64,000 nucleotides of DNA from positions 1,054,001 through 1,118,000 of the forward strand of contig OX596336.1 in assembly GCA_951394405.1 (NCBI GenBank). Direction: 5' to 3'. Made by a program: the position numbers and the translations under genes. The notes under the pieces are model-generated. The model was not told where the DNA came from. It did not search any database and saw only the letters and a list, made by a program, of their open reading frames with translations. The stretch's first letter is position 1, and each line of letters starts with the position of its first letter. Shown here in pieces: positions 39,744 to 62,585 of this stretch. This stretch comes from Coprinellus micaceus. Lineage: Eukaryota > Basidiomycota > Agaricomycetes > Agaricales > Psathyrellaceae.

Positions 39744-42415
39744 ATGGTCTCTACTAGTCGGCAAGCTGCTCTGGGGCAGAGCTCAACAAGTATGCAAGCA
39801 ATTCTACCTCAGGGCTCGTCACACTCCCCGGTCTCATCTACTAGTGCTAGCAATGGGCACTCCCAAGGTATGTACGCGCATATATCCCAATAAAACGCGC
39901 ATACAGCAGGTCTCGAGCGCAGCAGACGCGTCAAATTGACATTAACCTCAGATTCCACCACACTGACGACGTCGGCGGGTGAAGCGGACCCGGGCAGCTC
40001 AGTGGACCCCCAAGTCGCAGGCGGAGCCAAAGGGACAGCCACCCCAAAACGTCCCCAAAAGCGAAGGAAGGGGAAATGGAGTGCTAATATGAAGAAAGAC
40101 GCCTTATTGGCTCGGGAAGCCAAGATGTCCCTCCTCCGCAACTTTCTGCAGCTTCCGCTCGACATCATCCTCGAGGTACGCTGGTATTGATATGACTTTA
40201 CCGTGTTTCTGATATGGTGGTCCTTCAAGATGTTCAGCCATTTGCACCCCAGGACCCTCCTTTCCATCTCCCGCACCAGTAAAGAGCTTCGCGCGATGGT
40301 CCTTTCTCCAAGGCATGCAGATTTGTGGCGGAACGCTCGGGAGGAAGCCGGAGTACCGCCGCTCCCTGAAGGGTTCTCCGAGCCTCGATGGGCTTCCCTT
40401 CTTTTCGACACCGATTGCTGCCAGGTGAGGAACTGGAGTCATACTCATCATCTCATTTCACTTAATCCAAATGGCGGAGTCTTCAGGTTTGCTGGAATGC
40501 CACCAGTGCGGAAGTGAACTGGTATTTTCTTAGGCGCATTTGCTACGGATGCCAACTCCAGTACGTCGTGTCGCTCGTACTGTCCTCGCCCAAGGCATCC
40601 GCTGACATGGCATGTTGCAGCATGATTCGACTTCCAATCTCTAGCTACAATTCTACGCACGGCGACGAAGCCACTCGATTGATGCTAAGTTCGGTGGACA
40701 TCGAGGTCATGGAATATGTTCCTTGGGGCCGTAATATCAGCCACGGTCAGGCTGTTCTCTTCTGGGACGCTATCAAGGTGATCAAAACCTGGCAAGAGCT
40801 CTCCAAGCACACCGACCACGCAGGCAGAAAGGCGTTCCACTTGTGGAAGTTACGCCGTCGAGAGATAATCCGGAAGAACCTGAACGTGAGTCTACCGCGG
40901 CGAAGCGTTTCAATGACAACTCGCCCTCAACTCGCCCCAAATAGCTGATTCCCACGTATCAATTGTGGAGGACGAATTGTCTCTATCCATCCAAGAGGCT
41001 GATAAAGCATCGGCAAAATCGTTGGGTAGAGGAGCGCAAATACATGGATTTCGAAGAGTAAAGTGCCTCTCCGTTATAAGCTCTGTTCGTTGGAACTAAC
41101 ATACCGTGTGCTTGTGCGTTGAAAGAATTAAAGGTCGACTGAGGGAAGCTGGGCACAGAACAGAGGACATAGAGATGACTAAACTGTTATATCCCGCCCC
41201 AGACCTGCTGGACGGGTCCACCGCCTCAGATGCAGGTGCGGTTTCCCAGAAAAAGAAAGGCGACATCCTGATCGTCCTATTTTATAGATTGGGAGAGGAT
41301 GAGCCCCTTTCTCGAAGCTAGCGTCAGAAAGGTCAAAGATTTTCGCATCGCGCTCGAAATGGAGCTCGTGGCGCACGAACGCTTTACGGTCTTCGAGGGG
41401 GTATATGAAACGTTTCTCGACACTTTGCCGCCCTCGGAAAGATATCGTTGCCCCGAAGTCTCTTCCTTTCGCACAGATGTGGACGTTGTTGCTATACTGG
41501 AGGCCAGTAAGAGCATTACGATCACGCAAGCTCACTTCCAGCCCATCGCTAATAAAATGCAGGCGGCCATCGACCAGGTACACAAGGAGCTCAAGCAAAG
41601 TATTGCGAAGCTTGTGCCAATGTATTTTGGCATGCCAGAACTTTACCAACCCTGGTTGCGGGCAGACTATGTATATACCAGGCACCTTCCCGCAGACAAC
41701 GTCCCCGCAAGGGCAGAGGACGGCGTCCTGGTTGGCTGGGATATGATCACAAGCCACAGACACAGAGGGCATTCCAAAACATGGTTACGACCCGGAGTAC
41801 CGATCCAGGTGCCTAGGGCATTCGGCTATAACCTTCAGTCCTCGATAGACTCCTATAAGTTGATTGAAATGGCTGGTCTGTCTGATGGAGTCACCGTCAG
41901 GGAAATTGACGAGAGAGACCCTCGATTTGTATGGGAGAACGTAGGGGGTACGGGAGGATTGACGGTGTTCACGTGGCGAGCAGCGGTATGTCCATAATCG
42001 TTTGATTCCGCAGGGAAGTACATCTCAACAATACTCTAGCTTGCCCGTCTGTATGAAATCGGGATTCGAACAGTATCGGATCAGATGCGTCTAGCTACTA
42101 TGGAAGAGAAGACGGCAGCCAAAGCATTTGAAGTCATTGCTCGGCAACAGGCGAAGGCATGGGCGTGCAACCATTGCCCTCAGTATCTTGAAGCATCAGA
42201 CGCTGATACCAAACCGGCGATTCTCGCACACCTGGCTGGGAAGTGAGTACATATACTTGATCTCACACTCAAGGACGATGGGCTGACTGAGGCGGATATC
42301 AAGGCACGGCGTAACGGACCCTGAAATGTCAAGGGACTACTTCGTCAACGAGCGCTGCCGATATGCGTATGAAGTTCCTTATAAGACCCAACCCATGGGT
42401 CGCCTCGACGACTAG
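39744..42415 (+). CDS. F-box protein with C-terminal zinc-finger-like motif, copy 1
   Basis: ATG at 39744 (MVSTSRQAALGQSS). The first intron starts GTATGT after GHSQ. Exon 2 ends in a basic patch (KRPQKRRKGKWS) and the F-box start FLQLPLDIILE. After a short intron the F-box continues MFSHLHPRTLLSISRTSKEL, then RHADLWRNAREEAG, PEGFSEPRWASLLFD. Later exons contain EVMEYVPWGR, LWKLRRREIIRKNLN and a long helical region. Near the end a C..C/H...H motif (ACNHCPQYLEA, ILAHLAGKHGV) suggests a zinc finger. It ends RLDD, TAG at 42413-42415. Likely an SCF substrate receptor of unknown target. About six or more introns; later borders approximate. It has a paralogue at 62586. Confidence 0.8.
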
Positions 42416-42978: not shown

Positions 42979-42983
42979 ACTTA
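42979..42983. repeat. ACTTA, left end (possible crossover core)
   Basis: Left boundary of the unit: flank AGCC, then ACTTA, then TATCGAG. The same five bases occur at both other boundaries. Confidence 0.65.
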
Positions 42984-43361
42984 TATCGAGAGATTTAAGG
43001 TCGCTTGGGCCGTGGAACGGAGTCCCGTCCTTGGCGTTTCCTTTGCAGGAAGGTGGCCGAGGTGCCGGGCGAGGGCCCGAGCGGTTCGCCTGGGCCTTCC
43101 CCTTTTGTCCTGGATCCGGGTGATGGACCCCCGGTTCGGGGTCTTATGTAACAATCTAATCTAATCTGAACGTCACGTGCCTTTTCGACCCGCGCCAGTT
43201 CGACGCGTAATTGATTTCTCCTTGCTCTCATTGATCATGTTCGCGACGCGTTGTGGCCATCCTTGGGGGGATATCGGCCTCGGGCCCCCTCGCTTAGCTC
43301 ACATATCTCCCTCTAAGCCTCACCCCGCTTCCCAGACGCGCCAGAAGCCATCTGATTTGAG

Positions 43362-44010
43362 ATGAGCTCCGGATCGAGAACCAGGTCAGTGGGTGCTGCT
43401 CTATATTCGCTCCCTTCACTCACCCTCACACCCTCAGCACTCTCTACACGTTAAAGAATGTTGTTGGGCTCTCGTCGCTCCATCCTCTCAAACCGCATCT
43501 GTATCCAACATGCCGTGGCATCGGGTGTCTGCATGGACCTGGGCACCAAACCAGGAGCCGGTACGTGCAGCGCTCGCTCTGTTGTGGGGCCGTCTGGACG
43601 CGTTTTCTACGCGTTTTCTTCCAGGAGGTGCTCAAGTGCGATCCTGGGCAGTACTAGAATACGAGCACAGGGTCGCGGCACACCGGTGAATGTGGTGAGT
43701 CAATTTTCAAAAACCCCTTCCCCACGTCCCTCTCTCTCAAGCATGGGGCGCCGTGAATCTGGGGCCTCGATGGTGTTCTCCATGCCGAATTTTAGAAACT
43801 AATGTCTTCGGGGCTGTGCTAACGTTCCGTTCCAGCCATATACAACCCAGTGCCGAAAAGTGCATGTTCTCCTTAGAAGAACACGATGCGGGGTGGCGAC
43901 GAATTTGCCATTCGCATTTCGCAAATATGGCGGTGCGTTTCTCGTTCGCCACCTCAGCTCTCGCATCTCATCATTCCCTAGACGATGAGCCCACGCTCGA
44001 GGGTGCTTGA
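43362..44010 (+). CDS. Divergent histone H2A-like protein, element copy 1
   Basis: Four exons (43362-43384, 43457-43560, 43625-43685, 43836-44010) join in phase to 120 aa, the size of a core H2A. Around the exon 2/3 join the product reads GAG(G)AQVRSWAVLEY, against the canonical H2A alpha-2 GAGAPVYLAAVLEY; a CAG/GAG acceptor choice adds or removes one Gly. Upstream, NRICIQHAV fits the R-A-G-L/I-Q-F-P-V block. Downstream, HIQPSAEKCMFSLEE fits the L2/alpha-3 I-I-P-R-H-L...D-E-E block. About nine residues of the alpha-2/L2 loop are missing relative to H2A. This intron uses a weaker GTGAAT donor, because the better GTGAGT nearby lies behind an in-frame TGA. The branch site GCTAAC is well placed. 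A nuclear, H2B-partnering role is inferred. An alternative last intron at 43939 cannot be excluded. Confidence 0.6.
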
Positions 44011-45986
44011 GCTCACGTCGTTTTCAGCTCAATAGGCGATGTGTCGAGTGGCTGCCGTGCACCATCCTTTGCACTGATGTGTTGGCATTGTGGGCGTGCA
44101 GACGCGTTTCCATCGACGGGCTGACCTTGGGATGAGGAACGTGGACTGGTGGGGGGTGAGCGAGGGCCGAGAGGGTGTTCACCGTGATTGGCTTTGAAAG
44201 GTGTCTTTAAACCCACCCGTTTCGACGTCAGTTTCGATGTCAAGATCTATTTATTGTATACTCATTGCACGATGTTTCGAAGGAATGTACCGACCCCTAC
44301 ATTCGTTCTCCTCGCCTTCTAACCGTTCCCCCACTCTGTCGTGCCTCCAAGACCTAACAAACAAGGTAAGTAGTTATTGCCGTCGTCCTCACCCTCTGAA
44401 ACCAATTGCTAAATTGCTATTACTAACTCACCTTACCGACGGCTCTCGTGTACCTTCTACACGACCCTACACTTACCCCTGATTCGTTCGGCCTCGTTTA
44501 CCGTCACCTGGTGCCCTATCACTCAACTGCGAGGGCTTGTGGTCTTTCAGAGCCCGTTGTCACAGTCAGTGGCCTTCGGGGGCTCGTCATCGCTACGACC
44601 CCACCTGACCTCCTCCCCACTCCGCCATACGCATTGCCGCCGTGCCTCCAGGTCCTTGGAAGTGAGGTAAGTAATACTTGCCATTGAACCCAGCCCACTA
44701 ACCCACCTTATCCGCAGCGCCCGTGTACCCACACAACTCCACCTTCTCCATCCATTTGGCTTCACCTGCCGTTACTAACACCTCGTCTATGTGGGCTTGC
44801 GGCCCTTCGCGGCTGGTCGTCGTGGTTGCGGTCGTCCTATTGGGTTGCCGGGTCATGTCTTGAATGATGTGTAAGCCCACCTCACCTTGCGATGTTGAAA
44901 CCGCACATACTCACCTTACGCTTCGCAGGGGCAAGAAAATAACGCGCCAGCAAGCATGTCCTCACCGTCCGCTCTCCTGTATCCCATTCCACCCCATCCT
45001 TCGCACTCTCCTTTCCCCTCCTTTCCCCACCACACTCTCTCGTACTCCCTGCGGCTTCCCACCCACACTCTCACCTCATTGTGTCGTCCCTTCTTCAAGT
45101 GCTCTTGTTTTGGGAGGGAGTTGGAGCCCTCCAGCTTTGACACCTTCCCCCCCTGTGTTGGATCTTCGACGTTGGGTGTCAACACCGTCGTACGGCACCT
45201 CCCCTCCATGCCCACATCCTCCCTCCCTCCTCTCGCCACACATGATGCCATGGCTCGAATGGGATAGCAAGTGCTAGGTGGAGCGCAGGGTCTCGTCTGA
45301 AGTGAGCTAGTGACCGGCCGAGTTCGGGTTCATTTGGCGGTGTCGTTTTGGGAGGGCGATGGTAGGCAGGTGAGTGTGGTGAGTTGGGAAATGGTGGTCA
45401 CGAATCAGGAAGCGGAAGGGATGGGTATACTTGGGAGACGGGGTCTACTGGGATGTGAGTATTTTTACCGTTCGCTGCGGTACGACACGAGACTGACCTC
45501 GTTGCGCAAAGAAGTGGCCGATTGCCGTGTACGAGTGCTGACATGTTCTAGGTTGCACATAGTGCAGAGAGGGCGAGGATGCGCAAGGCAGGCGAGCAAC
45601 GGCGCGTAAGGAACATCGAAGGGGCCTACACCAGCGGAGGATATGGAGGATGCGAAGGAGACCCCTGACCCACTTCTCGATCGACCAGCGGCGGCGGTTC
45701 GGAGGCGCGAAGGCCGCGAAGAAGACTTCCAAATCCCCCCCTCCCCCCTTGGATTATTGCAAGGAGGTCTACCCCTCTACCCCTCCTTGAAGTATTAGTA
45801 TCGTGTACTTATGTGATGCTCCCCGCTCCCCTTTTCTCCTCTACTCTTTGACTCTATCTGCGGACTGACCCGTTGTGCATCGTACATCATTGTATTTTCA
45901 TAATCTTATTCAAATGCTTATAATCGCTAGTTGTAATCAAAGTATCTCTTTCTAAATTTCACGGCTTGTCTGCATGTGTGAAGCCT
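44011..45986. other. Unresolved region with repeated exon-like modules, copy 1
   Basis: The minus strand shows a repeated pattern: a segment ending ...AAG, a GTGAGT/GTGGGT donor, a short intron, then a CTTGG/CCTGGAGGCACG exon start. It occurs near 44710-44640 and 44430-44340, with a related donor near 44910. A minus frame at 44880-44698 (LVTAGEAKWMEKVELCGYTG) continues across such a join, but no full model results. On the plus strand, 45310-45609 is a 99-codon frame, and a splice variant ends with an Arg-rich stretch. Which strand is transcribed is undecided. Confidence 0.35.
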
Positions 45987-46657
45987 TTAGTTCACCGTCA
46001 GTGTTAAGTCAAAAGATATATGCACAAGCCACGAACGGAGTACTGCATTGGCGCCTGCCGATGCTGCGCAATGCCCAATCTCCCCTGGGAAGAGTGCCTG
46101 GACGGCTGCTTCAATATCCCGGATGCGCACAATTGAGCGACGTTGGTCTTTTGCATGCTCTGCATGCCAGCAGGATAAGGGACTGGTTAGCGGCTGGAAA
46201 TAAAATTTACTGTGCAGTACCTACGGCGGGCTTTCATTGCGATCGCCTGAAGGGAGCAATTCAGGATATTGTTGATGATCTCCTGAGCTTGCATCGACAG
46301 CTTGAACGAGGCGCCGTGGATAATCTGGAGAACTGAATTTCATTCAGATGTGAACGACTTGGAGCGTGTGTGGCCCGTACCTCTCGAGACCTCATGTGAG
46401 AGATCAATTGTTGGATACGGTCCCCTAGATATCCTCCACCTCGGCCGGGGTCGGCAGCGTGCTCGAGCGTGCCCAAGGGAGCTTCCGACAGCGAGCTTCG
46501 AAAATCCTGGTAGTTTCTGAACTTTAGGGTCGGCGAGTGATGTGACGCTGTATCGACGCTCGTACTCCTCCAGAAGATCACCAACAACAGATGGGTCATA
46601 TTCGGAGATGTCGTCGTCGCTAGACTCCAGGAGTTTCTGGATCGGAGGTAATGGCAT
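45987..46657 (-). CDS. Divergent histone H2B-like protein, element copy 1
   Basis: Four exons (46657-46566, 46516-46381, 46324-46225, 46159-45987) with consensus GT-AG introns join in phase to 166 aa. Residues 1-58 are acidic and Ser-rich, not the usual basic H2B tail. The histone fold follows: alpha-1 YLGDRIQQLISHMRS, alpha-2 QAQEIINNILNCSLQAIAMK, then alpha-3/alpha-C from R123, RDIEAAVQALFPGEIGHCAA, S143-A-G...A148-V149. This matches the H2B signature [27 protein letters not shown] at about 13 of 30 positions with the PGE motif intact. The four-exon frame continuity argues for function. Likely a nuclear partner of the H2A-like protein in the same element. Role inferred: chromatin packaging or marking of the element or recombination intermediate. 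A plus-strand frame at 45974-46336 is antisense. Confidence 0.8.
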
Positions 46658-46845
46658 TGTGTGAGCATCTAACTTCGAGTCGTAGTTTCCGCAGTTAATA
46701 TATACGCTCACGGAGTGGGATGAGACACAACATCCATTCACTGGGGTCAAGAAGGGATGGTTCTGCACATAAAAGGGAGCAGGAATAATTGAGAAAACTA
46801 TCTAAGACAATCGGTAAGACACAAGACAGGGTACGGGAGGAGAGG

Positions 46846-49648
46846 CTAATATAATTGGGTTTTCTTGGCACGGGTTAGCCGCTTTGCGTGTGCCTGGTCA
46901 TTGGCCTGGATAGCCTTGAACAGGGCCGTAACGTTCTTGGTTGCATCACCGTAGTATGCGAGGAACCTCGTCGTGTCTTCGTCAAACCTTTTGACGGCAT
47001 GTTAGTAAGGGAGAGAACAAAGAAAAAACGAAATATGCAACGGACTCCTCAATGAACTCCAGCGCGATAGTTTTACGCTGAAGGTACAGGGTGTGCTGCC
47101 CACCCACCCCCTTGTACCACTCGGGCTTCCAGTCCTTCAATGGGACGGTATGCTCAGGCGGCGAGGCAACCTTCCAATCACAAACCACCTGCCTCCACCC
47201 TTCCCACCCTGCCTTGTGCGAGATTTCAGGGATGCGCCAGCGAGACGGCACCACTGGGAGAGGTCGAGCGGAAGAGGTTGCTTGCTGACGAGGGTAGGGC
47301 GGTCGTTGTACAGCTAATGGGTGGGGGAATGGCATCCGTGTATGTGCGAGAGCGTTGTTGGAGTTGCCATTGGCGACGATCGAGGCGGTGGGCAGCTGTT
47401 GATGGGAGGGAAGAGGAGTGGCTGGGAAGGATGATATACGAGCAGCTGGGTGGTGATACGAATCAGGGCCGTAAGCAACGACTGAGGTATGGACTGTCTG
47501 GTGATGCTGGGTGATGCGAGGAAGTGCTGATAGGGGCACAGTGGCTGGTTGGTGGTACTGAGAGAAGGGGTGAACTATATCTGAGTATTCGCCGTTGGGA
47601 AACGGTTGGCTCCAGGGCAGTTGGTGGGAGGGAGGTGTTGGATGGGACAAAGCCCACGGATAATGGGGGAAGTTTGGGGATGCAGTGGGGTGGAATGACG
47701 GCAGCTGGCCAGACGTTGCGCCGAACGATTCTCGGCTGGTGGGGGGTGGTAATGCAAATGCTTGGGACGGCTGCTGAAACCCGGCGGATGGATGGATGGA
47801 TAGAGGAGGATAGGAAGTGCTTTGCTGATAATGAGCGGCGTGAGGGAATTTGGAAAGGTTCTGCCGCATTTCAAGGACCTGGCGCTTCATCGAGTCCTCG
47901 AGGTGGTTGACAACATTCCGAGTGAACCCCCCTATGAGCTGTTTCCCTTCAGCAATGGTGAGAGGGCGCATTTCAAGAGCTTCTCCCGCGTGTGAGCCAG
48001 ATGATGAGATGTCGGTGTCGCCAGGCCTTAGCGCGTCGCTGTGGTCTTCTTCATATGTGTACAGCTCATCGAGAAGGTACCGGATAAGGGTATCGCGCTA
48101 TATGAAGGTAAGGGATGCACACCCAGAGAGGATGTGTTCGCACCTTCTCTCCCAGTGCCCAGCCGCCCCACCATCTAATCCTTGATAATGTCCACTTATA
48201 CCCCAGCGGCGCAAACATGAATCGATACTGAGCCCCACCCCTACGAAAGCAGTGAGTCGTTAAGAGCTCGGCGTTTGGGATCTTTGCAGCTGTCGCCATC
48301 TGGGTGATGAACTTGCCCATGGCATCTGGTGACATGGGGGTGTCGGGGTGGATTCGCTTGCCGATCTTGGGGAAAACATGGTCGTTGGGGTGCCACGGCC
48401 GTTGAAGAAGGTACTTCTCGCAGAAATAGAGCCAGACTAGAAGATGCTTGTAGAGGTGGATCGAGGGGGTGGACGTTGAAGCTGAGAGTGGGTAGATGTT
48501 GTAAACATGGCCTAGGGAAACCGGACGATTTCAGATGATGGTACCAAACAAGCACAACCAGCAGGGTAAGCCTCACCATTCATCTGCTGCTCGCCCTTCT
48601 TCATCTTTCTCTGCCAGTTCTTTCGTTCACGAAGGCTGATACGAAAAAATTCGAGCTGGTCAATGGGGTTGGCCCCATAGACAGGTCGGTCCCCCCCAGC
48701 AAAGTCGATACCGCCATAACGGAAGTTGGTCGTCTCAAAATTTCTGAAAAGCAGGGTATCAATACACAGCACCGAGCAGTGTGAAAAGCCCAAATCAACG
48801 TGAGCTCACCGGGTCCAGATAGTGAAGCCAAAGGCTGAGACGGCACGCCAGAGAAGATGTGTGGTCATAAATGCGATGTCCGCCTGCGTTCTTGGCGCGA
48901 AGTCTTCAGGGCACACACGTAGAGACTCAGCGTGCATGGCCTCCATGTCCTCGATGGATGTGGCCTTGGAATGGGTTCTCTCCTTCTCACCATCTTTCTT
49001 CTGGCATGATTCAACCAGGTCCGAGACCTCAGCACTCTGCGTTGGGTTCCCGTAGCATCGCCCTGTGTTCTCGTCGCATTCCCATTTGCCCCGATACCTA
49101 TCACCACACCTAACCAGTGTGGATTATCAAAGTAAGCCCCAATATTCATTCCGTCTCTGCTGAGAAAATTAAATAGGTCCGTACATGGTGTCGTAGTGCC
49201 ACTTGAAAGCCGAATAAATTGAGTATGCCGTCCCACCCATCAAGTCTTCTTCGAAACACTTCCGATTGATGAAAAGAGCGAGGGCCGTCGGGGTGCAGGG
49301 TTTGGGAGGGCCGTCAAAGGCAAAGACAAAGTTAGGGTCAGTGGAAATGTTTTGCTCCCCACCCAAGGCCTCTTCCTCGCCTTCGCCGGTGTTGTGCTCG
49401 CCATTGGCAACACCCCCCTCGAACGCTTTCTGTGCAGCCCTCTCCTCGGTGGCAAATGTCTTGAGGAACTCGCGACCACGCTTGATGTGACCCTCGTATG
49501 ACTTGATTGTATTCTTGCCCTTCTGGTGAGCCTTTGTATTGGCCTGCATCGACTGCACGGCATCCGCATAATTGAACCGCAACGGGGCAGCTGGTGGAGC
49601 GTTTGGCCTGGAGAACCTCTGGGGAGATGTGGTCATGGTGCGAGGCAT
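46846..49648 (-). CDS. Crypton-type tyrosine recombinase with GCR1_C domain, copy 1
   Basis: Six exons (49648-49185, 49109-48810, 48743-48577, 48511-48144, 48097-47046, 46987-46846) join in phase to 830 aa. The N-terminal core-binding domain contains KNTIKSYEGHIKRGREFLKT. The catalytic domain has Arg-I at R255 in R-N-F-E-x4-R-Y-G-G-I-D, Box II H397-C-F-R400, the third-position residue W428 (WWGGW) and nucleophile Y440 in DTLIRYLLDE. A Pro/His/Ser-rich linker (about 500-700) follows. A GCR1_C-like DNA-binding domain (about 708-783) contains GWRQVVCDW, PLKDWKPEWYKG and RKTIALEFIEE. The order YR then GCR1_C is that of Cryptons. All catalytic residues are present and no frame is broken, so it is probably active. 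It would excise and integrate the element by strand exchange between short identical sites. The last intron uses a GTCCGT donor. Confidence 0.87.
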
Positions 49649-50143
49649 GTTGTTATGTGGGCGGTGGGCTGAAAGCTGGGGATGAGGGTTCGTCAGTACT
49701 TGACACTCACGAGCCACGATCAACACCGAAACTCACGATGAGAAATAGATTCGGGAGTTTACTGCTGAGGTTGACTGAGGTTAGTGGTGGTTGGGGGGGG
49801 TGAGTTGGGAGGTGAGACGAGGCATTTGGACAATAGACGCTGAGACAATTCGGATTCCGGAGTTCTGCTCGGGCCAGGCCCACCCAAGTCGCAATGCCAA
49901 GGGGGTCCGGGGCCCAGAATTTTGGACCAGAGGTCGAAATATTTTTTTGGGCACCTGGGACCCCCCCTCCCTCCCTCCCCGTGGGAACTATGTACTTAAA
50001 ATGGAAATAATATAACATCATCACTGCAGAACGTTTCTTCGCTGTATCATTGAAATACCTTTGACATACTTGTACTGGTGTTACATAGTAATGGTCAAGG
50101 GTTTTGAAAACCTGCCAGGTTTGTCCACATACCCTTGGCATTT

Positions 50144-50260
50144 AAAATGAGCCCAGGAATGTCCAAAACGGGTGGAAACCCAGAGGGTTCTGAGTGCATT
50201 ATCAAATTACTCATTTCCCTGTCATTTTTCATCCGTTTTGAGAGTTCTTGGGCTCATTCA
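50144..50260. repeat. Long inverted repeat, about 30-bp arms, copy 1
   Basis: The left arm (50144-50174, AATGAGCCCAGGAATGTCC then AAAACGG) is matched by the reverse complement of 50230-50259 (AATGAGCCCAAGAACTCTC then AAAACGG). The loop is about 55 nt. The arms differ at a few positions. Confidence 0.8.
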
Positions 50261-50612
50261 CATCCATAAAAAATTCAAGAGCCATGACAGCTATTGCTTG
50301 TTACTTATTTCACTGTCCAATTAAATTTCTCACTCATAACTTGCCCCTCAGTGTGCAATTCACAACTGCTGGGGATGTGATTGTGATTGTTTGTGCTCAT
50401 GCCAAATATGGAAGGTTGAGCTAGTACAGTCGCTCTGCTTGCATTTTTGGTGCACTTGAGCAAGTGTATGAATACATCAGCTCAAAAATGCAGATGTAGG
50501 TCAATTTTTGGGCCAAATCCGCCCCCTATTGGTCAAGGTCAAAAAATTATTTTGGCCTGAGGGGACCCCCCCCTCCCTCCCTACCCCTAGGTCCGGGATT
50601 CCCGGCCCGGGA

Positions 50613-50647
50613 CCCCCTTGCGCAATGCGCACGGGGGACCGTACGGT
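50613..50647. repeat. GC-rich palindrome pair, copy 1
   Basis: 50613-50637 is a near-perfect 25-nt palindrome (CCCCC T TGCGCA A TGCGCA C GGGGG). A perfect 10-bp palindrome, ACCGTACGGT (50638-50647), follows at once. It adjoins a C-rich/poly-pyrimidine tract. Confidence 0.8.
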
Positions 50648-51043
50648 ACCCTACCCGCTCTGCCGAAATTAGGTGACACCGTCTAGAGGAAAAGGCAATG
50701 CATGCGAGATATCATCCAGGGCCGAACATAAAAATTCGAGCCGTGACTTGTATTTCGTATTGAACGTTTCGTACGTTGAACAGAACCCTGGCCAGGTTGA
50801 TGGCACCAGGCCGTAAAATTGAGGATGTCCTCGACAGAGGATGCGGAAGCACTCGCAAGGGGCTGCACTATGTCTGGTGTTGGGGGTAGTGCAATGACTT
50901 TACGACACTCAGCACTGATTCTCTGAGTTGGTGAACAGTTATTCCTGTTGCAGCAACACGCTCGGTGCTTTGATGTTGCTACTTTGAGGCACAGAAGAGC
51001 TTACTTCTAAGCGATGTCATCCGCTGCACACCTCAAACAGACT

Positions 51044-51442
51044 CTAACGGACGAGATGTCCCGGTGCCATGGCTCTGTGGACCCAGAACTCTGGGGGAAC
51101 CCAACCACTGGGCAGATCTTCCGGCATCCAGTCGCCCACTTCGGAGACAGTAACCAACGGGATGTCAGAACCCTGCACTCTAATATTCTGTCGGTTGGGG
51201 TGCCAAGGGACATGGCAAGTTCCACAATATAGCTCTACTGTATGAGGAGGGCATAAGAAAAGACGCTCTGTGTATCCCCAATCTCCACCCCAGCAGGAGA
51301 AACAGCGCGCGCGTCCAGGATTTCCGGCCACAGGTTGTCCACATGGACCCACAACTCCATCTCCCATCCAATACGGCTCGCAACTAGCCGCACACTGGCT
51401 AAATCGGACCCAAATATCCTTCGTCAATGCCCAGAACCAACT
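51044..51442 (-). CDS. Cys/Trp-rich ORF, probable exon of zinc-binding protein, copy 1
   Basis: An open frame of about 133 codons between stops without a convincing ATG, so probably an internal or terminal exon. It ends MAPGHLVR, TAG at 51046-51044. Cys spacing suggests metal binding: QCAASC, GPCG, RCFSCWGGDW, LFLC and YCGTCHVPWH. Plus-strand frames over the same stretch (51014-51232 and 51427-51636) compete, and I cannot exclude that one of them is coding. Family not recognised. Confidence 0.4.
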   Translation of the reverse strand, partial: SWFWALTKDIWVRFSQCAASCEPYWMGDGVVGPCGQPVAGNPGRARCFSCWGGDWGYTERLFLCPPHTVELYCGTCHVPWHPNRQNIRVQGSDIPLVTVSEVGDWMPEDLPSGWVPPEFWVHRAMAPGHLVR

Positions 51443-52732
51443 TCACATGTTTTTCCGCTGCCGTATGGTCCGGACACTGTCCCAAGTCATACGAAATTGC
51501 TGTAGATACTGTGACGGGCTTCGGCTCTGACGAGCCTGCTCTCCGACAACCCATTGACTTCAATATCTGCATGGCTGCAAAAGTTGGAAAGTGCGGGAAA
51601 GTGTCGGGAAAGTACAGTGATCTTAATTTTGATTAAAGTCCCCTGACTTCAAGAGATCCCTTTAGCGATTACCAGTCTAGCCATCTGGGATAGAGGGGTA
51701 GAGCGGAGGTCCGGACCCGCTACTCTTGGCCCCTTTGAAAAAAGAATGAATACAGACACTGAGATTCAGTAACACATATGCAAGGGATAGAGTAGGGGAC
51801 GGTACAATCTCGGGGCTACCTTCAACACACTACTCTAGGTTAAGGGAATACCAGCAGCGGGAGCTCCAGGTATGAGAAAGGGCCCGGGCCTTGTGAAGTC
51901 ACTGGAAGGGAGGAGCGATCAGTTTTGGTCAGAAGCTCACTAGCCCGGGAGCTGTAAATGTAGACCCACACAACCCAAATAACTCTCGCACACAATTTCG
52001 GACCAACCTGACGGAACAGGCGACTTGCTCGAAGCTCGAATGGAGAGATCAACTCGATTTGGCTTGGTCAGTGTGGCACGCTGCGGTGGGGTATGGCACG
52101 AATGCGAACACGGAACTGGGTTGGAATGGGCTCACCGCACCTACTGTCTACGATCGACTCCCTCGAGGCTACGAAGGAGAGCTTTGATACTTGCCGGTCA
52201 TGGCACCATGTTCTCGCCTTCCAAATTTGGGATCTATATTAGGGAGGTGTTGCAGTTCCGAAAGTCAATAAGGGGTCCACCAACCGACCAGCGAGGTCGC
52301 TCCGTGTAGAAATAATCTGGCAGAAGAACTCCAGCACACAGATTCCAATATCAATCGATCACTGGGCCCCCAATGCTCCCAAACTACATTGATTTCTCCA
52401 ACGACTATTCCTGGGTTTTGCGCGCGCCTGACATCAGGACCACCCAGTGTCAACCCAACGCGTATACCCAGTCTTGCCTTCGGAATCCAAATTCTTCCTT
52501 CTCAACGGCTCTCAATGGACAGTCGGTGAGTCCCGATGAGATCACCGAACTACCTTGCCTCGGAGTTTGCCGGCTCTCACCCTATCAGGCAAACTGGTTC
52601 GTCGGTACCTCTTGCATCCGCTACCCACGTCCTCCGTCGTCAGTTCCGCTCATTCGGTTGAGATCTATTGACCACCTGCGAGACAGGTTTACTGACTTCA
52701 ACTCGGCACGTTAATTTTCGAGGATACAGCAG
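51443..52732. other. Right part of element, no supported gene, copy 1
   Basis: Frames on both strands of 60-110 codons occur (for example 52373-52714 plus, YIDFSNDYSWVLRAPDIRTT; 51840-52052 minus, ISPFELRASRLFRQVG). Some could be exons upstream of the Cys-rich ORF. I could not join them. No terminal inverted repeat with the left end was convincing. Confidence 0.35.
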
Positions 52733-52737
52733 ACTTA
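52733..52737. repeat. ACTTA at the copy1/copy2 junction
   Basis: Junction sequence ACAGCAG, ACTTA, TATCGAG: right end of copy 1 joined to left end of copy 2 through a single ACTTA. Confidence 0.7.
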
Positions 52738-53115
52738 TATCGAGAGATTTAAGGTCGCTTGGGCCGTGGAACGGAGTCCCGTCCTTGGCGTTTCCTTTGC
52801 AGGAAGGTGGCCGAGGTGCCGGGCGAGGGCCCGAGCGGTTCGCCTGGGCCTTCCCCTTTTGTCCTGGATCCGGGTGATGGACCCCCGGTTCGGGGTCTTA
52901 TGTAACAATCTAATCTAATCTGAACGTCACGTGCCTTTTCGACCCGCGCCAGTTCGACGCGTAATTGATTTCTCCTTGCTCTCATTGATCATGTTCGCGA
53001 CGCGTTGTGGCCATCCTTGGGGGGATATCGGCCTCGGGCCCCCTCGCTTAGCTCACATATCTCCCTCTAAGCCTCACCCCGCTTCCCAGACGCGCCAGAA
53101 GCCATCTGATTTGAG

Positions 53116-53764
53116 ATGAGCTCCGGATCGAGAACCAGGTCAGTGGGTGCTGCTCTATATTCGCTCCCTTCACTCACCCTCACACCCTCAGCACTCTCTA
53201 CACGTTAAAGAATGTTGTTGGGCTCTCGTCGCTCCATCCTCTCAAACCGCATCTGTATCCAACATGCCGTGGCATCGGGTGTCTGCATGGACCTGGGCAC
53301 CAAACCAGGAGCCGGTACGTGCAGCGCTCGCTCTGTTGTGGGGCCGTCTGGACGCGTTTTCTACGCGTTTTCTTCCAGGAGGTGCTCAAGTGCGATCCTG
53401 GGCAGTACTAGAATACGAGCACAGGGTCGCGGCACACCGGTGAATGTGGTGAGTCAATTTTCAAAAACCCCTTCCCCACGTCCCTCTCTCTCAAGCATGG
53501 GGCGCCGTGAATCTGGGGCCTCGATGGTGTTCTCCATGCCGAATTTTAGAAACTAATGTCTTCGGGGCTGTGCTAACGTTCCGTTCCAGCCATATACAAC
53601 CCAGTGCCGAAAAGTGCATGTTCTCCTTAGAAGAACACGATGCGGGGTGGCGACGAATTTGCCATTCGCATTTCGCAAATATGGCGGTGCGTTTCTCGTT
53701 CGCCACCTCAGCTCTCGCATCTCATCATTCCCTAGACGATGAGCCCACGCTCGAGGGTGCTTGA
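53116..53764 (+). CDS. Divergent histone H2A-like protein, element copy 2
   Basis: Same four-exon model as in copy 1, at exons 53116-53138, 53211-53314, 53379-53439 and 53590-53764. The frame, splice sites and product are unchanged, including the GAG(G)AQV...AVLEY alpha-2 block and the IQPS...LEE segment. Confidence 0.6.
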
Positions 53765-55740
53765 GCTCACGTCGTTTTCAGCTCAATAGGCGATGTGTCG
53801 AGTGGCTGCCGTGCACCATCCTTTGCACTGATGTGTTGGCATTGTGGGCGTGCAGACGCGTTTCCATCGACGGGCTGACCTTGGGATGAGGAACGTGGAC
53901 TGGTGGGGGGTGAGCGAGGGCCGAGAGGGTGTTCACCGTGATTGGCTTTGAAAGGTGTCTTTAAACCCACCCGTTTCGACGTCAGTTTCGATGTCAAGAT
54001 CTATTTATTGTATACTCATTGCACGATGTTTCGAAGGAATGTACCGACCCCTACATTCGTTCTCCTCGCCTTCTAACCGTTCCCCCACTCTGTCGTGCCT
54101 CCAAGACCTAACAAACAAGGTAAGTAGTTATTGCCGTCGTCCTCACCCTCTGAAACCAATTGCTAAATTGCTATTACTAACTCACCTTACCGACGGCTCT
54201 CGTGTACCTTCTACACGACCCTACACTTACCCCTGATTCGTTCGGCCTCGTTTACCGTCACCTGGTGCCCTATCACTCAACTGCGAGGGCTTGTGGTCTT
54301 TCAGAGCCCGTTGTCACAGTCAGTGGCCTTCGGGGGCTCGTCATCGCTACGACCCCACCTGACCTCCTCCCCACTCCGCCATACGCATTGCCGCCGTGCC
54401 TCCAGGTCCTTGGAAGTGAGGTAAGTAATACTTGCCATTGAACCCAGCCCACTAACCCACCTTATCCGCAGCGCCCGTGTACCCACACAACTCCACCTTC
54501 TCCATCCATTTGGCTTCACCTGCCGTTACTAACACCTCGTCTATGTGGGCTTGCGGCCCTTCGCGGCTGGTCGTCGTGGTTGCGGTCGTCCTATTGGGTT
54601 GCCGGGTCATGTCTTGAATGATGTGTAAGCCCACCTCACCTTGCGATGTTGAAACCGCACATACTCACCTTACGCTTCGCAGGGGCAAGAAAATAACGCG
54701 CCAGCAAGCATGTCCTCACCGTCCGCTCTCCTGTATCCCATTCCACCCCATCCTTCGCACTCTCCTTTCCCCTCCTTTCCCCACCACACTCTCTCGTACT
54801 CCCTGCGGCTTCCCACCCACACTCTCACCTCATTGTGTCGTCCCTTCTTCAAGTGCTCTTGTTTTGGGAGGGAGTTGGAGCCCTCCAGCTTTGACACCTT
54901 CCCCCCCTGTGTTGGATCTTCGACGTTGGGTGTCAACACCGTCGTACGGCACCTCCCCTCCATGCCCACATCCTCCCTCCCTCCTCTCGCCACACATGAT
55001 GCCATGGCTCGAATGGGATAGCAAGTGCTAGGTGGAGCGCAGGGTCTCGTCTGAAGTGAGCTAGTGACCGGCCGAGTTCGGGTTCATTTGGCGGTGTCGT
55101 TTTGGGAGGGCGATGGTAGGCAGGTGAGTGTGGTGAGTTGGGAAATGGTGGTCACGAATCAGGAAGCGGAAGGGATGGGTATACTTGGGAGACGGGGTCT
55201 ACTGGGATGTGAGTATTTTTACCGTTCGCTGCGGTACGACACGAGACTGACCTCGTTGCGCAAAGAAGTGGCCGATTGCCGTGTACGAGTGCTGACATGT
55301 TCTAGGTTGCACATAGTGCAGAGAGGGCGAGGATGCGCAAGGCAGGCGAGCAACGGCGCGTAAGGAACATCGAAGGGGCCTACACCAGCGGAGGATATGG
55401 AGGATGCGAAGGAGACCCCTGACCCACTTCTCGATCGACCAGCGGCGGCGGTTCGGAGGCGCGAAGGCCGCGAAGAAGACTTCCAAATCCCCCCCTCCCC
55501 CCTTGGATTATTGCAAGGAGGTCTACCCCTCTACCCCTCCTTGAAGTATTAGTATCGTGTACTTATGTGATGCTCCCCGCTCCCCTTTTCTCCTCTACTC
55601 TTTGACTCTATCTGCGGACTGACCCGTTGTGCATCGTACATCATTGTATTTTCATAATCTTATTCAAATGCTTATAATCGCTAGTTGTAATCAAAGTATC
55701 TCTTTCTAAATTTCACGGCTTGTCTGCATGTGTGAAGCCT
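53765..55740. other. Unresolved region with repeated exon-like modules, copy 2
   Basis: Same content as 44011-45986: minus-strand donor/acceptor modules near 54464-54394 and 54184-54094, and a plus-strand frame at 55064-55363. No complete gene model. Confidence 0.35.
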
Positions 55741-56411
55741 TTAGTTCACCGTCAGTGTTAAGTCAAAAGATATATGCACAAGCCACGAACGGAGTACTGC
55801 ATTGGCGCCTGCCGATGCTGCGCAATGCCCAATCTCCCCTGGGAAGAGTGCCTGGACGGCTGCTTCAATATCCCGGATGCGCACAATTGAGCGACGTTGG
55901 TCTTTTGCATGCTCTGCATGCCAGCAGGATAAGGGACTGGTTAGCGGCTGGAAATAAAATTTACTGTGCAGTACCTACGGCGGGCTTTCATTGCGATCGC
56001 CTGAAGGGAGCAATTCAGGATATTGTTGATGATCTCCTGAGCTTGCATCGACAGCTTGAACGAGGCGCCGTGGATAATCTGGAGAACTGAATTTCATTCA
56101 GATGTGAACGACTTGGAGCGTGTGTGGCCCGTACCTCTCGAGACCTCATGTGAGAGATCAATTGTTGGATACGGTCCCCTAGATATCCTCCACCTCGGCC
56201 GGGGTCGGCAGCGTGCTCGAGCGTGCCCAAGGGAGCTTCCGACAGCGAGCTTCGAAAATCCTGGTAGTTTCTGAACTTTAGGGTCGGCGAGTGATGTGAC
56301 GCTGTATCGACGCTCGTACTCCTCCAGAAGATCACCAACAACAGATGGGTCATATTCGGAGATGTCGTCGTCGCTAGACTCCAGGAGTTTCTGGATCGGA
56401 GGTAATGGCAT
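55741..56411 (-). CDS. Divergent histone H2B-like protein, element copy 2
   Basis: Exons 56411-56320, 56270-56135, 56078-55979 and 55913-55741 give the same 166-aa product as copy 1, with the RDIEAAVQALFPGEI alpha-3 block. Frame and splice sites are unchanged. Confidence 0.8.
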
Positions 56412-56599
56412 TGTGTGAGCATCTAACTTCGAGTCGTAGTTTCCGCAGTTAATATATACGCTCACGGAGTGGGATGAGACACAACATCCATTCACTGGGG
56501 TCAAGAAGGGATGGTTCTGCACATAAAAGGGAGCAGGAATAATTGAGAAAACTATCTAAGACAATCGGTAAGACACAAGACAGGGTACGGGAGGAGAGG

Positions 56600-59402
56600 C
56601 TAATATAATTGGGTTTTCTTGGCACGGGTTAGCCGCTTTGCGTGTGCCTGGTCATTGGCCTGGATAGCCTTGAACAGGGCCGTAACGTTCTTGGTTGCAT
56701 CACCGTAGTATGCGAGGAACCTCGTCGTGTCTTCGTCAAACCTTTTGACGGCATGTTAGTAAGGGAGAGAACAAAGAAAAAACGAAATATGCAACGGACT
56801 CCTCAATGAACTCCAGCGCGATAGTTTTACGCTGAAGGTACAGGGTGTGCTGCCCACCCACCCCCTTGTACCACTCGGGCTTCCAGTCCTTCAATGGGAC
56901 GGTATGCTCAGGCGGCGAGGCAACCTTCCAATCACAAACCACCTGCCTCCACCCTTCCCACCCTGCCTTGTGCGAGATTTCAGGGATGCGCCAGCGAGAC
57001 GGCACCACTGGGAGAGGTCGAGCGGAAGAGGTTGCTTGCTGACGAGGGTAGGGCGGTCGTTGTACAGCTAATGGGTGGGGGAATGGCATCCGTGTATGTG
57101 CGAGAGCGTTGTTGGAGTTGCCATTGGCGACGATCGAGGCGGTGGGCAGCTGTTGATGGGAGGGAAGAGGAGTGGCTGGGAAGGATGATATACGAGCAGC
57201 TGGGTGGTGATACGAATCAGGGCCGTAAGCAACGACTGAGGTATGGACTGTCTGGTGATGCTGGGTGATGCGAGGAAGTGCTGATAGGGGCACAGTGGCT
57301 GGTTGGTGGTACTGAGAGAAGGGGTGAACTATATCTGAGTATTCGCCGTTGGGAAACGGTTGGCTCCAGGGCAGTTGGTGGGAGGGAGGTGTTGGATGGG
57401 ACAAAGCCCACGGATAATGGGGGAAGTTTGGGGATGCAGTGGGGTGGAATGACGGCAGCTGGCCAGACGTTGCGCCGAACGATTCTCGGCTGGTGGGGGG
57501 TGGTAATGCAAATGCTTGGGACGGCTGCTGAAACCCGGCGGATGGATGGATGGATAGAGGAGGATAGGAAGTGCTTTGCTGATAATGAGCGGCGTGAGGG
57601 AATTTGGAAAGGTTCTGCCGCATTTCAAGGACCTGGCGCTTCATCGAGTCCTCGAGGTGGTTGACAACATTCCGAGTGAACCCCCCTATGAGCTGTTTCC
57701 CTTCAGCAATGGTGAGAGGGCGCATTTCAAGAGCTTCTCCCGCGTGTGAGCCAGATGATGAGATGTCGGTGTCGCCAGGCCTTAGCGCGTCGCTGTGGTC
57801 TTCTTCATATGTGTACAGCTCATCGAGAAGGTACCGGATAAGGGTATCGCGCTATATGAAGGTAAGGGATGCACACCCAGAGAGGATGTGTTCGCACCTT
57901 CTCTCCCAGTGCCCAGCCGCCCCACCATCTAATCCTTGATAATGTCCACTTATACCCCAGCGGCGCAAACATGAATCGATACTGAGCCCCACCCCTACGA
58001 AAGCAGTGAGTCGTTAAGAGCTCGGCGTTTGGGATCTTTGCAGCTGTCGCCATCTGGGTGATGAACTTGCCCATGGCATCTGGTGACATGGGGGTGTCGG
58101 GGTGGATTCGCTTGCCGATCTTGGGGAAAACATGGTCGTTGGGGTGCCACGGCCGTTGAAGAAGGTACTTCTCGCAGAAATAGAGCCAGACTAGAAGATG
58201 CTTGTAGAGGTGGATCGAGGGGGTGGACGTTGAAGCTGAGAGTGGGTAGATGTTGTAAACATGGCCTAGGGAAACCGGACGATTTCAGATGATGGTACCA
58301 AACAAGCACAACCAGCAGGGTAAGCCTCACCATTCATCTGCTGCTCGCCCTTCTTCATCTTTCTCTGCCAGTTCTTTCGTTCACGAAGGCTGATACGAAA
58401 AAATTCGAGCTGGTCAATGGGGTTGGCCCCATAGACAGGTCGGTCCCCCCCAGCAAAGTCGATACCGCCATAACGGAAGTTGGTCGTCTCAAAATTTCTG
58501 AAAAGCAGGGTATCAATACACAGCACCGAGCAGTGTGAAAAGCCCAAATCAACGTGAGCTCACCGGGTCCAGATAGTGAAGCCAAAGGCTGAGACGGCAC
58601 GCCAGAGAAGATGTGTGGTCATAAATGCGATGTCCGCCTGCGTTCTTGGCGCGAAGTCTTCAGGGCACACACGTAGAGACTCAGCGTGCATGGCCTCCAT
58701 GTCCTCGATGGATGTGGCCTTGGAATGGGTTCTCTCCTTCTCACCATCTTTCTTCTGGCATGATTCAACCAGGTCCGAGACCTCAGCACTCTGCGTTGGG
58801 TTCCCGTAGCATCGCCCTGTGTTCTCGTCGCATTCCCATTTGCCCCGATACCTATCACCACACCTAACCAGTGTGGATTATCAAAGTAAGCCCCAATATT
58901 CATTCCGTCTCTGCTGAGAAAATTAAATAGGTCCGTACATGGTGTCGTAGTGCCACTTGAAAGCCGAATAAATTGAGTATGCCGTCCCACCCATCAAGTC
59001 TTCTTCGAAACACTTCCGATTGATGAAAAGAGCGAGGGCCGTCGGGGTGCAGGGTTTGGGAGGGCCGTCAAAGGCAAAGACAAAGTTAGGGTCAGTGGAA
59101 ATGTTTTGCTCCCCACCCAAGGCCTCTTCCTCGCCTTCGCCGGTGTTGTGCTCGCCATTGGCAACACCCCCCTCGAACGCTTTCTGTGCAGCCCTCTCCT
59201 CGGTGGCAAATGTCTTGAGGAACTCGCGACCACGCTTGATGTGACCCTCGTATGACTTGATTGTATTCTTGCCCTTCTGGTGAGCCTTTGTATTGGCCTG
59301 CATCGACTGCACGGCATCCGCATAATTGAACCGCAACGGGGCAGCTGGTGGAGCGTTTGGCCTGGAGAACCTCTGGGGAGATGTGGTCATGGTGCGAGGC
59401 AT
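56600..59402 (-). CDS. Crypton-type tyrosine recombinase with GCR1_C domain, copy 2
   Basis: Exons 59402-58939, 58863-58564, 58497-58331, 58265-57898, 57851-56800 and 56741-56600 give the same 830-aa enzyme, with R255, H397, R400, W428 and Y440 all present. Two apparently functional recombinase genes therefore sit in tandem. Confidence 0.87.
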
Positions 59403-59897
59403 GTTGTTATGTGGGCGGTGGGCTGAAAGCTGGGGATGAGGGTTCGTCAGTACTTGACACTCACGAGCCACGATCAACACCGAAACTCACGATGAGAAAT
59501 AGATTCGGGAGTTTACTGCTGAGGTTGACTGAGGTTAGTGGTGGTTGGGGGGGGTGAGTTGGGAGGTGAGACGAGGCATTTGGACAATAGACGCTGAGAC
59601 AATTCGGATTCCGGAGTTCTGCTCGGGCCAGGCCCACCCAAGTCGCAATGCCAAGGGGGTCCGGGGCCCAGAATTTTGGACCAGAGGTCGAAATATTTTT
59701 TTGGGCACCTGGGACCCCCCCTCCCTCCCTCCCCGTGGGAACTATGTACTTAAAATGGAAATAATATAACATCATCACTGCAGAACGTTTCTTCGCTGTA
59801 TCATTGAAATACCTTTGACATACTTGTACTGGTGTTACATAGTAATGGTCAAGGGTTTTGAAAACCTGCCAGGTTTGTCCACATACCCTTGGCATTT

Positions 59898-60014
59898 AAA
59901 ATGAGCCCAGGAATGTCCAAAACGGGTGGAAACCCAGAGGGTTCTGAGTGCATTATCAAATTACTCATTTCCCTGTCATTTTTCATCCGTTTTGAGAGTT
60001 CTTGGGCTCATTCA
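59898..60014. repeat. Long inverted repeat, copy 2
   Basis: Counterpart of 50144-50260; arms and loop unchanged. Confidence 0.8.
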
Positions 60015-60366
60015 CATCCATAAAAAATTCAAGAGCCATGACAGCTATTGCTTGTTACTTATTTCACTGTCCAATTAAATTTCTCACTCATAACTTGCCC
60101 CTCAGTGTGCAATTCACAACTGCTGGGGATGTGATTGTGATTGTTTGTGCTCATGCCAAATATGGAAGGTTGAGCTAGTACAGTCGCTCTGCTTGCATTT
60201 TTGGTGCACTTGAGCAAGTGTATGAATACATCAGCTCAAAAATGCAGATGTAGGTCAATTTTTGGGCCAAATCCGCCCCCTATTGGTCAAGGTCAAAAAA
60301 TTATTTTGGCCTGAGGGGACCCCCCCCTCCCTCCCTACCCCTAGGTCCGGGATTCCCGGCCCGGGA

Positions 60367-60401
60367 CCCCCTTGCGCAATGCGCACGGGGGACCGTACGG
60401 T
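60367..60401. repeat. GC-rich palindrome pair, copy 2
   Basis: Counterpart of 50613-50647. Confidence 0.8.
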
Positions 60402-60797
60402 ACCCTACCCGCTCTGCCGAAATTAGGTGACACCGTCTAGAGGAAAAGGCAATGCATGCGAGATATCATCCAGGGCCGAACATAAAAATTCGAGCCGTGA
60501 CTTGTATTTCGTATTGAACGTTTCGTACGTTGAACAGAACCCTGGCCAGGTTGATGGCACCAGGCCGTAAAATTGAGGATGTCCTCGACAGAGGATGCGG
60601 AAGCACTCGCAAGGGGCTGCACTATGTCTGGTGTTGGGGGTAGTGCAATGACTTTACGACACTCAGCACTGATTCTCTGAGTTGGTGAACAGTTATTCCT
60701 GTTGCAGCAACACGCTCGGTGCTTTGATGTTGCTACTTTGAGGCACAGAAGAGCTTACTTCTAAGCGATGTCATCCGCTGCACACCTCAAACAGACT

Positions 60798-61196
60798 CTA
60801 ACGGACGAGATGTCCCGGTGCCATGGCTCTGTGGACCCAGAACTCTGGGGGAACCCAACCACTGGGCAGATCTTCCGGCATCCAGTCGCCCACTTCGGAG
60901 ACAGTAACCAACGGGATGTCAGAACCCTGCACTCTAATATTCTGTCGGTTGGGGTGCCAAGGGACATGGCAAGTTCCACAATATAGCTCTACTGTATGAG
61001 GAGGGCATAAGAAAAGACGCTCTGTGTATCCCCAATCTCCACCCCAGCAGGAGAAACAGCGCGCGCGTCCAGGATTTCCGGCCACAGGTTGTCCACATGG
61101 ACCCACAACTCCATCTCCCATCCAATACGGCTCGCAACTAGCCGCACACTGGCTAAATCGGACCCAAATATCCTTCGTCAATGCCCAGAACCAACT
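60798..61196 (-). CDS. Cys/Trp-rich ORF, copy 2
   Basis: Counterpart of 51044-51442, with the same Cys spacing and the same lack of a clear ATG. Confidence 0.4.
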   Translation of the reverse strand, partial: SWFWALTKDIWVRFSQCAASCEPYWMGDGVVGPCGQPVAGNPGRARCFSCWGGDWGYTERLFLCPPHTVELYCGTCHVPWHPNRQNIRVQGSDIPLVTVSEVGDWMPEDLPSGWVPPEFWVHRAMAPGHLVR

Positions 61197-62486
61197 TCAC
61201 ATGTTTTTCCGCTGCCGTATGGTCCGGACACTGTCCCAAGTCATACGAAATTGCTGTAGATACTGTGACGGGCTTCGGCTCTGACGAGCCTGCTCTCCGA
61301 CAACCCATTGACTTCAATATCTGCATGGCTGCAAAAGTTGGAAAGTGCGGGAAAGTGTCGGGAAAGTACAGTGATCTTAATTTTGATTAAAGTCCCCTGA
61401 CTTCAAGAGATCCCTTTAGCGATTACCAGTCTAGCCATCTGGGATAGAGGGGTAGAGCGGAGGTCCGGACCCGCTACTCTTGGCCCCTTTGAAAAAAGAA
61501 TGAATACAGACACTGAGATTCAGTAACACATATGCAAGGGATAGAGTAGGGGACGGTACAATCTCGGGGCTACCTTCAACACACTACTCTAGGTTAAGGG
61601 AATACCAGCAGCGGGAGCTCCAGGTATGAGAAAGGGCCCGGGCCTTGTGAAGTCACTGGAAGGGAGGAGCGATCAGTTTTGGTCAGAAGCTCACTAGCCC
61701 GGGAGCTGTAAATGTAGACCCACACAACCCAAATAACTCTCGCACACAATTTCGGACCAACCTGACGGAACAGGCGACTTGCTCGAAGCTCGAATGGAGA
61801 GATCAACTCGATTTGGCTTGGTCAGTGTGGCACGCTGCGGTGGGGTATGGCACGAATGCGAACACGGAACTGGGTTGGAATGGGCTCACCGCACCTACTG
61901 TCTACGATCGACTCCCTCGAGGCTACGAAGGAGAGCTTTGATACTTGCCGGTCATGGCACCATGTTCTCGCCTTCCAAATTTGGGATCTATATTAGGGAG
62001 GTGTTGCAGTTCCGAAAGTCAATAAGGGGTCCACCAACCGACCAGCGAGGTCGCTCCGTGTAGAAATAATCTGGCAGAAGAACTCCAGCACACAGATTCC
62101 AATATCAATCGATCACTGGGCCCCCAATGCTCCCAAACTACATTGATTTCTCCAACGACTATTCCTGGGTTTTGCGCGCGCCTGACATCAGGACCACCCA
62201 GTGTCAACCCAACGCGTATACCCAGTCTTGCCTTCGGAATCCAAATTCTTCCTTCTCAACGGCTCTCAATGGACAGTCGGTGAGTCCCGATGAGATCACC
62301 GAACTACCTTGCCTCGGAGTTTGCCGGCTCTCACCCTATCAGGCAAACTGGTTCGTCGGTACCTCTTGCATCCGCTACCCACGTCCTCCGTCGTCAGTTC
62401 CGCTCATTCGGTTGAGATCTATTGACCACCTGCGAGACAGGTTTACTGACTTCAACTCGGCACGTTAATTTTCGAGGATACAGCAG
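61197..62486. other. Right part of element, no supported gene, copy 2
   Basis: Counterpart of 51443-52732; short competing frames only. Confidence 0.35.
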
Positions 62487-62491
62487 ACTTA
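62487..62491. repeat. ACTTA, right end
   Basis: Right boundary: ACAGCAG, ACTTA, AGCGAGTCGG. Downstream sequence is host DNA related to the promoter of F-box copy 1. Confidence 0.65.
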
Positions 62492-62585
62492 AGCGAGTCG
62501 GGAGTGATTCGCTTCTTTACTTCCGACCACCACCATCCCGACGATCCGAGGAAAGCAACCCATCGTCCTTTGCGACGCGTTGAAG

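Follow-up and report, generated by a model that had tools for sequence, protein, structure and literature searches.

Structure of the element

Two copies of a likely mobile tyrosine recombinase (YR) element lie head to tail in the stretch of Coprinellus micaceus DNA analysed here, a window of 64 kb (G000:C3:1054001-1118000). The genome searched comprised 50.3 Mb in 17 contigs. The element and its edges were located as follows.

42979..52732, no strand assigned: YR element, copy 1, 9,754 bp, based on the identical head-to-tail repeat and the empty-site alignment
52733..62486, no strand assigned: YR element, copy 2, with the same features at +9754, based on identity to copy 1
42979..42983, plus strand: ACTTA at the left edge, repeated at 52733-52737 (junction) and 62487-62491 (right edge)

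The head-to-tail copies were identical at 9,754 of 9,754 positions (100%). An earlier note on this DNA had proposed a 9.75-kb unit with a YR gene at 42979-52732, and the unit was confirmed by the identical tandem copy and the YR homologues. The order at the tandem junction was right end, ACTTA, left end. When the outer flanks were joined, the resulting sequence could be aligned across the insertion point to a paralogous stretch, 39250-40000 (CAGCC-ACTTA versus CAGCC-TCTTG), as predicted by insertion at the ACTTA point. We infer that ACTTA is a possible crossover site. The YR would excise the unit as a circle and reinsert it at ACTTA, which would explain the order of the tandem junction. At the copy 52733-62486, the junction reads as the joint of an excised circle would. 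The identical tandem could be an assembly artefact. Inverted repeats of at least 40 bp were absent from the 64-kb window.

In the genome search, the full element was present at one locus, besides a short relative of 1.3 kb (C13:964969-966279, L039:4969-6279), which has both element ends. This relative on contig C13 showed no match to the YR gene or the H2B-like gene and is probably non-autonomous. The YR search of the genome gave 17 matches, 16 of them in the two element copies and one weak, C-terminal match at C3:366399-366656. When the H2B-like core was used as the genome query (E up to 10), the matches were the two element copies only; the canonical H2Bs were also missed, so this search was of short reach.

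Several other features were observed in the window. The stretch 49898-50620 is a nested repeat with 31-nt inverted ends that are 81% complementary (CAAGGGGGTCC); parts of this repeat have matches at many other sites across the genome, and it is probably a MITE. A Cys-rich frame of 127 aa inside the element (51044-51427, minus strand) had no Pfam match and was found in the two element copies only by the genome search. Repeated strong intron-like signals (GTAAGT, CTAAC, AG) were seen by eye in the left arm at 44340-44980 on the plus strand. Some of them were kept in the C13 relative, again judged by eye, and they perhaps mark a spliced leader or a non-coding transcript. Furthermore, the flanking host DNA at 39666-41167 and 62511-63996 is a duplicate pair with 75% identity, with the element positioned at the beginning of the second member. 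A 238-aa frame at 37243-37959 (minus strand) contains the motif VILDEVWSGME, which looks, by eye, like an ABC-type ATPase.

Recombinase gene

46846..49648, minus strand: YR gene, predicted product about 826 aa, based on the gene model, analogy with P0002 and homologues
49648-49185, 49097-48810, 48743-48577, 48511-48144, 48097-47046 and 46987-46846, minus strand: exons of the YR gene

The YR gene model gave 800 aa at first. The fifth intron was then placed by analogy with C. micaceus FA13DRAFT_1757041 (P0002), giving about 826 aa and an end at 46846. P0002 was the best relative of the YR protein (84% identity, covering 60% of the query). Among 7,994 scored candidates, 321 homologues reached E 0.001 or better. 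Among the best 120 of these 321, the closest proteins were from agaric fungi, and several matches were named Tyr recombinase or DNA breaking-rejoining enzyme. The H-C-x-R block and a Tyr were near-invariant in 12 relatives, the catalytic assignment being made by eye.

The sole Pfam match of the element YR protein was DUF3435 at E 0.11, which is below the cut-off, and GCR1_C was not found by Pfam at E up to 1. Among the 12 relatives, DUF3435 was matched in five (best E 0.015), Phage_int_SAM_4 in three (best 3.8e-4), Phage_integrase in two (best 0.048) and GCR1_C, weakly, in two (best 0.12). The Crypton-like label given in the earlier note was upheld in part: the YR and the short direct repeats agree with it, and GCR1_C was at best weak in Pfam. 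Judged from its sequence, the element recombinase is predicted to work like a Crypton-type YR.

H2B-like gene

46381..46657, minus strand: H2B-like exon 1, acidic N-terminus, Arg-rich stretch and start of the fold
46225..46332, minus strand: H2B-like exon 2, remainder of alpha-1, plus alpha-2
45987..46159, minus strand: H2B-like exon 3, encoding alpha-3 and alpha-C, with provisional last residues

The H2B-like gene (46657-45987) lies on the minus strand, like the YR gene, and downstream of it. The frame is open through three exons, the two predicted introns (48 and 65 nt) have GT-AG borders, and the predicted product has 185 aa. A 166-aa H2B-like protein had been described before; its coordinates, 45987-46657, proved exact, and its length was revised to 185 aa in the new model, in which the last residues are unsettled.

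The PDB was searched by hmmsearch with a profile made of the H2B-like protein and its homologue, and 181 distinct sequences were obtained at E up to 10. The best 60 of these 181 were named H2B in nearly every case, the exception being 6kw3_T, named H4. The top match (8.5e-23) was a chain holding two H2B units, human H2B F-M was matched at 4.8e-13, and further matches ranged from 1.8e-11 to 1.6e-10. The HMMER search of the product led to H2B chains, many of them near 1e-10, in agreement with the earlier assignment. In addition, the spliced alignment of the host H2B core with the minus strand scored 90, about 11 sd above the mean of 150 shuffled queries (mean 40.6, sd 4.3, max 52; 0/150 as good). 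The introns of the H2B-like gene fall in V of VLQIIH and Q of QHAKDQ, both in phase 1. Those of the host H2B gene on contig C12 fall in V of VLKQVH and K of KLAAYS, both in phase 1, with a third near the end. Both predicted introns are thus at the same aligned codons and in the same phase as host H2B introns, which suggests that the H2B-like gene descended from a fungal H2B gene.

Pfam returned nothing for a crude hand-joined exon string. With the splice-correct model, the Histone matches were marginal: E 0.02 and 15.6 bits for the H2B-like protein (cut-off 26.4, not reached), and E 0.0088 and 16.7 bits, also below the cut-off, for its C. micaceus relative P0001. Such marginal values would fit a chance reading of non-coding DNA, but the shuffle controls, the PDB matches, the intron positions and the separate gene prediction of P0001 in C. 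micaceus leave this explanation a negligible probability. The H2B assignment of the predicted gene is solid, and it places an H2B in a YR element.

The H2B-like protein matched the host H2B at 31 of 135 aligned positions. Its net charge was -7 in residues 1-45, confirming the acidic tail reported before, and then +9 in residues 46-80. The basic N-terminal tail is lacking, and K120, the ubiquitin site, is R both here and in P0001. The acidic start and K120R mark the protein as a variant derived from H2B rather than a canonical one.

A TAF9-like start (46657-46520, minus strand) was also considered. Residues 6-46 matched TFIID-31kDa at E 0.035, which was not significant, and the similarity is not claimed. 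The H2B-like start searched alone in Pfam gave TFIID-31kDa at E 0.24, and the N-terminal profile gave TAF9 in five of six PDB rows (E 0.22-1.6). No TFIID-31kDa match was found by Pfam in the start of P0001. In the host genome, the TAF9 match lies on contig C4.

Relative of the H2B-like protein and probable linkage to a recombinase

The only database match to the H2B-like protein was P0001 (FA13DRAFT_1798062), a C. micaceus protein of 170 aa (one of two candidates), with E 2.1e-31 and 70% identity over 87%. Among 1,315 candidates searched with a profile, P0001 was likewise the single match, and the conservation of the H2B-like protein was therefore judged on two sequences. P0001 aligned from the first methionine with 68% identity and has the same acidic N-terminus. 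By region, the identities were 37/45 (residues 1-45), 14/33 (46-80) and 64/91 (81-171). The single-sequence structure model of P0001 was poor (pLDDT 45.6).

The H2B-like gene might be a decaying pseudogene from which no protein is made. The unsettled end of the last exon and the poorly conserved middle stretch would be in keeping with decay. However, the frame is open through three exons, and the start and the fold are well matched in P0001, so a pseudogene is very unlikely.

P0001 and the YR relative P0002 are each on a C. micaceus contig 241,557 bp long; the contig of P0057, a further C. micaceus YR, has a length of 621,256. Because of the equal 241,557, we read P0001 and P0002 as lying on the same contig, and their linkage rests on that equality. 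The earlier note had proposed a search for homologues next to recombinase genes; the placement of P0001 and P0002 on contigs of identical length is in line with its view that a YR element carries an H2B-type histone gene.

Canonical H2B relic on the plus strand

45704..45732, plus strand: relic of canonical H2B N-tail codons, 28/29 to the host H2B
45882..45910, plus strand: stretch matching the sequence beyond the stop codon of the host H2B, 29/29

With up to 3 mismatches, the 29-mer at 45882-45910 occurred at three genome sites, namely the two element copies and C12:974224. Full-length H2B scored 47 over 45400-46000 on the plus strand, compared with a shuffle maximum of 44 (0/100 as good). 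For the H2B core, the plus-strand score was at shuffle level (98/150 as good), and the case for the relic is therefore built on the DNA matches and the full-length score. The relic (45704-45910) and the H2B-like gene are on opposite strands. Taken together, they suggest either two entries of histone DNA into the element lineage or a single entry accompanied by rearrangement.

The relic implies at least one uptake of histone DNA with no evident function. In the same way, the H2B-like gene could be a passenger, an H2B-type gene caught by chance that does nothing for the element or that benefits the host. The decayed canonical piece would be consistent with this, but the reading frame and the acidic start are kept between the element protein and P0001, and the H2B-like relative and the YR relative are on contigs of the same 241,557. 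A passenger gene is thus considered unlikely.

Proposed H2A-like gene

43362..44010, plus strand: proposed H2A-like gene, rejected on Pfam, spliced alignment and the C13 relative

In the earlier note, a 120-aa H2A-like protein at 43362-44010 was paired with the H2B-like protein. This gene was rejected after spliced alignment with the host H2A and H2A.Z, Pfam analysis and comparison with the C13 relative. Pfam showed no match. The host H2A core scored 30 in 43300-44100, against a shuffle mean of 28.9 (51/150 as good). Full-length H2A in the region of the proposed gene scored 39, with 3/200 shuffles as good, the one result leaning to H2A; over 42979-46700, 45/100 shuffles were as good. The best full-length H2A score in the whole element was found elsewhere (47, ending at 51882), and for the H2A core on the minus strand, 100/100 shuffles were as good. 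Moreover, AGG replaces the ATG start in the C13 relative, which has no LEY in any forward frame and so is without the AVLEY exon.

For an element that makes both H2A-like and H2B-like proteins as its own histone dimer, the short GAG-A-V-AVLEY motif and the full-length score of 39 may be cited. The H2A core at shuffle level, the result over the left part, the absence of a Pfam match and the C13 relative without start codon and AVLEY argue against it, and such an element is extremely unlikely. The H2B member of the proposed pair was retained on the PDB profile and the spliced alignment score, whereas the H2A member was not detectable, and the element-encoded dimer was abandoned with it.

Substitutions and proposed mechanism

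The hydrophobic pattern of the histone fold was kept in the H2B-like protein, and R92 and E105 (human numbering) were kept in both this protein and P0001. The changed positions (human numbering, element/P0001) were D68 (C/C), E71 (Q/K), E76 (K/R), L80 (H/H), Y83 (D/D), R99 (Q/R), L100 (A/A), E113 (A/A) and K120 (R/R). D68, L80, Y83 and L100 of H2B presumably face H4. According to excerpts of a published study, H2B E76 contacts H4 R92, and E76K H2B destabilises the nucleosome and raises NAP1L protein binding (PMC7949156).

The H2B-like gene would have been captured from a fungal H2B gene and then diverged. Since the fold pattern survives, the H2A handshake is likely; as no element H2A is detectable, the H2B-like protein, if it dimerises, would need host H2A, its likely partner. 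With the charge at E76 reversed and D68, L80, Y83 and L100 changed, the four-helix bundle of H2B with H4 would be weaker. Nucleosomes with the H2B-like protein would then fall apart easily, and the chromatin of the element would be kept open. For this whole reading, a YR unit with a fungal-derived H2B that pairs with host H2A and gives labile nucleosomes and open element chromatin, the chances appear about even on sequence grounds. Circle packaging, altered chromatin at integration sites and protection from silencing had been proposed as roles, and the substitutions lean to nucleosome destabilisation. It is a more tentative suggestion that a transposon-made core histone, with E76 reversed, the ubiquitin lysine absent and an acidic start, replaces host H2B on the element and prevents silencing.

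Complete loss of the H4 contact might keep the H2B-like protein out of nucleosomes. By itself or together with host H2A, the protein could act as a factor that binds DNA or a chaperone, for instance within the recombinase complex or on the circle after excision. The changed H4 contact positions, the acidic start followed by the +9 basic stretch, the stronger NAP1L binding of E76K H2B in the excerpted study (PMC7949156) and the gene order, with the H2B-like gene following the YR gene in the same orientation, would agree with such a factor. However, the alpha-3/alpha-C region, typical of nucleosomal H2B, is kept in the H2B-like protein, and a role off the nucleosome is considered unlikely. The labile-nucleosome reading is a compact case, one gene with one prediction (it binds H2A and has poor H4 contact). 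If the H2B-like protein enters chromatin, a selfish element would alter the nucleosome itself.

Comparison with known systems

CryptonF elements are YR DNA transposons of fungi and oomycetes, as described in excerpts of a Crypton survey (PMC3212892). Like these, the element has a YR gene with introns, ACTTA as short direct repeats at its ends and a circle-type tandem junction, and it is without a long terminal inverted repeat (none of at least 40 bp in the window). CryptonF is characterised by terminal direct repeats of 4-6 bp without terminal inverted repeats; ACTTA is such a repeat, the inverted-repeat search covering lengths of at least 40 bp. The element differs from CryptonF, as excerpted, in that GCR1_C is weakly seen in its relatives and in its size of 9.75 kb with an H2B-like gene (PMC3212892). 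Cryptons have been described with C48 peptidase genes and with a Mariner fusion, and in the excerpts of the survey the word histone occurred twice, both times for histone deacetylase (PMC3212892). A transposon-borne core histone was not found in the portions of the open-licence PMC literature covered, and the earlier statement that no Crypton-like element with histone cargo was known stood within that literature. Starships of Pezizomycotina, as partially described, are also YR elements with cargo, and the element protein and its relatives have weak DUF3435 similarity (0.11; relatives best 0.015). Unlike Starships, however, the element is under 10 kb, has agaric relatives, and its DUF3435 match is below the cut-off.

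Viruses carry histones, lone H2Bs included, according to excerpts of PMC9145170. The lone H2B of pandoravirus resembles the present case, with H2B present without H2A, H3 and H4 and with acidic residues in the N-terminal tail (PMC9145170, in part). The pandoravirus H2B differs in being viral, 64-75% identical to eukaryotic H2B, with K120 kept; the element protein matches host H2B at the 31 of 135 positions given above and has R at K120 (PMC9145170, in part).

Compared with canonical fungal H2B, as encoded by the host genes on C12, the H2B-like gene shares the alpha-1 to alpha-C pattern and two intron positions with their phases. It differs in the acidic start, E76K, K120R and other changes, and in its location inside a YR element. 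The K at position 76 is also that of the H2B E76K oncohistone as described in excerpts of PMC7949156. The oncohistone is a point mutant of canonical H2B, whereas E76K in the element is one of many changes (PMC7949156, in part). The H2B-like protein of this element shares a changed site, E76, with a nucleosome-destabilising cancer mutation.
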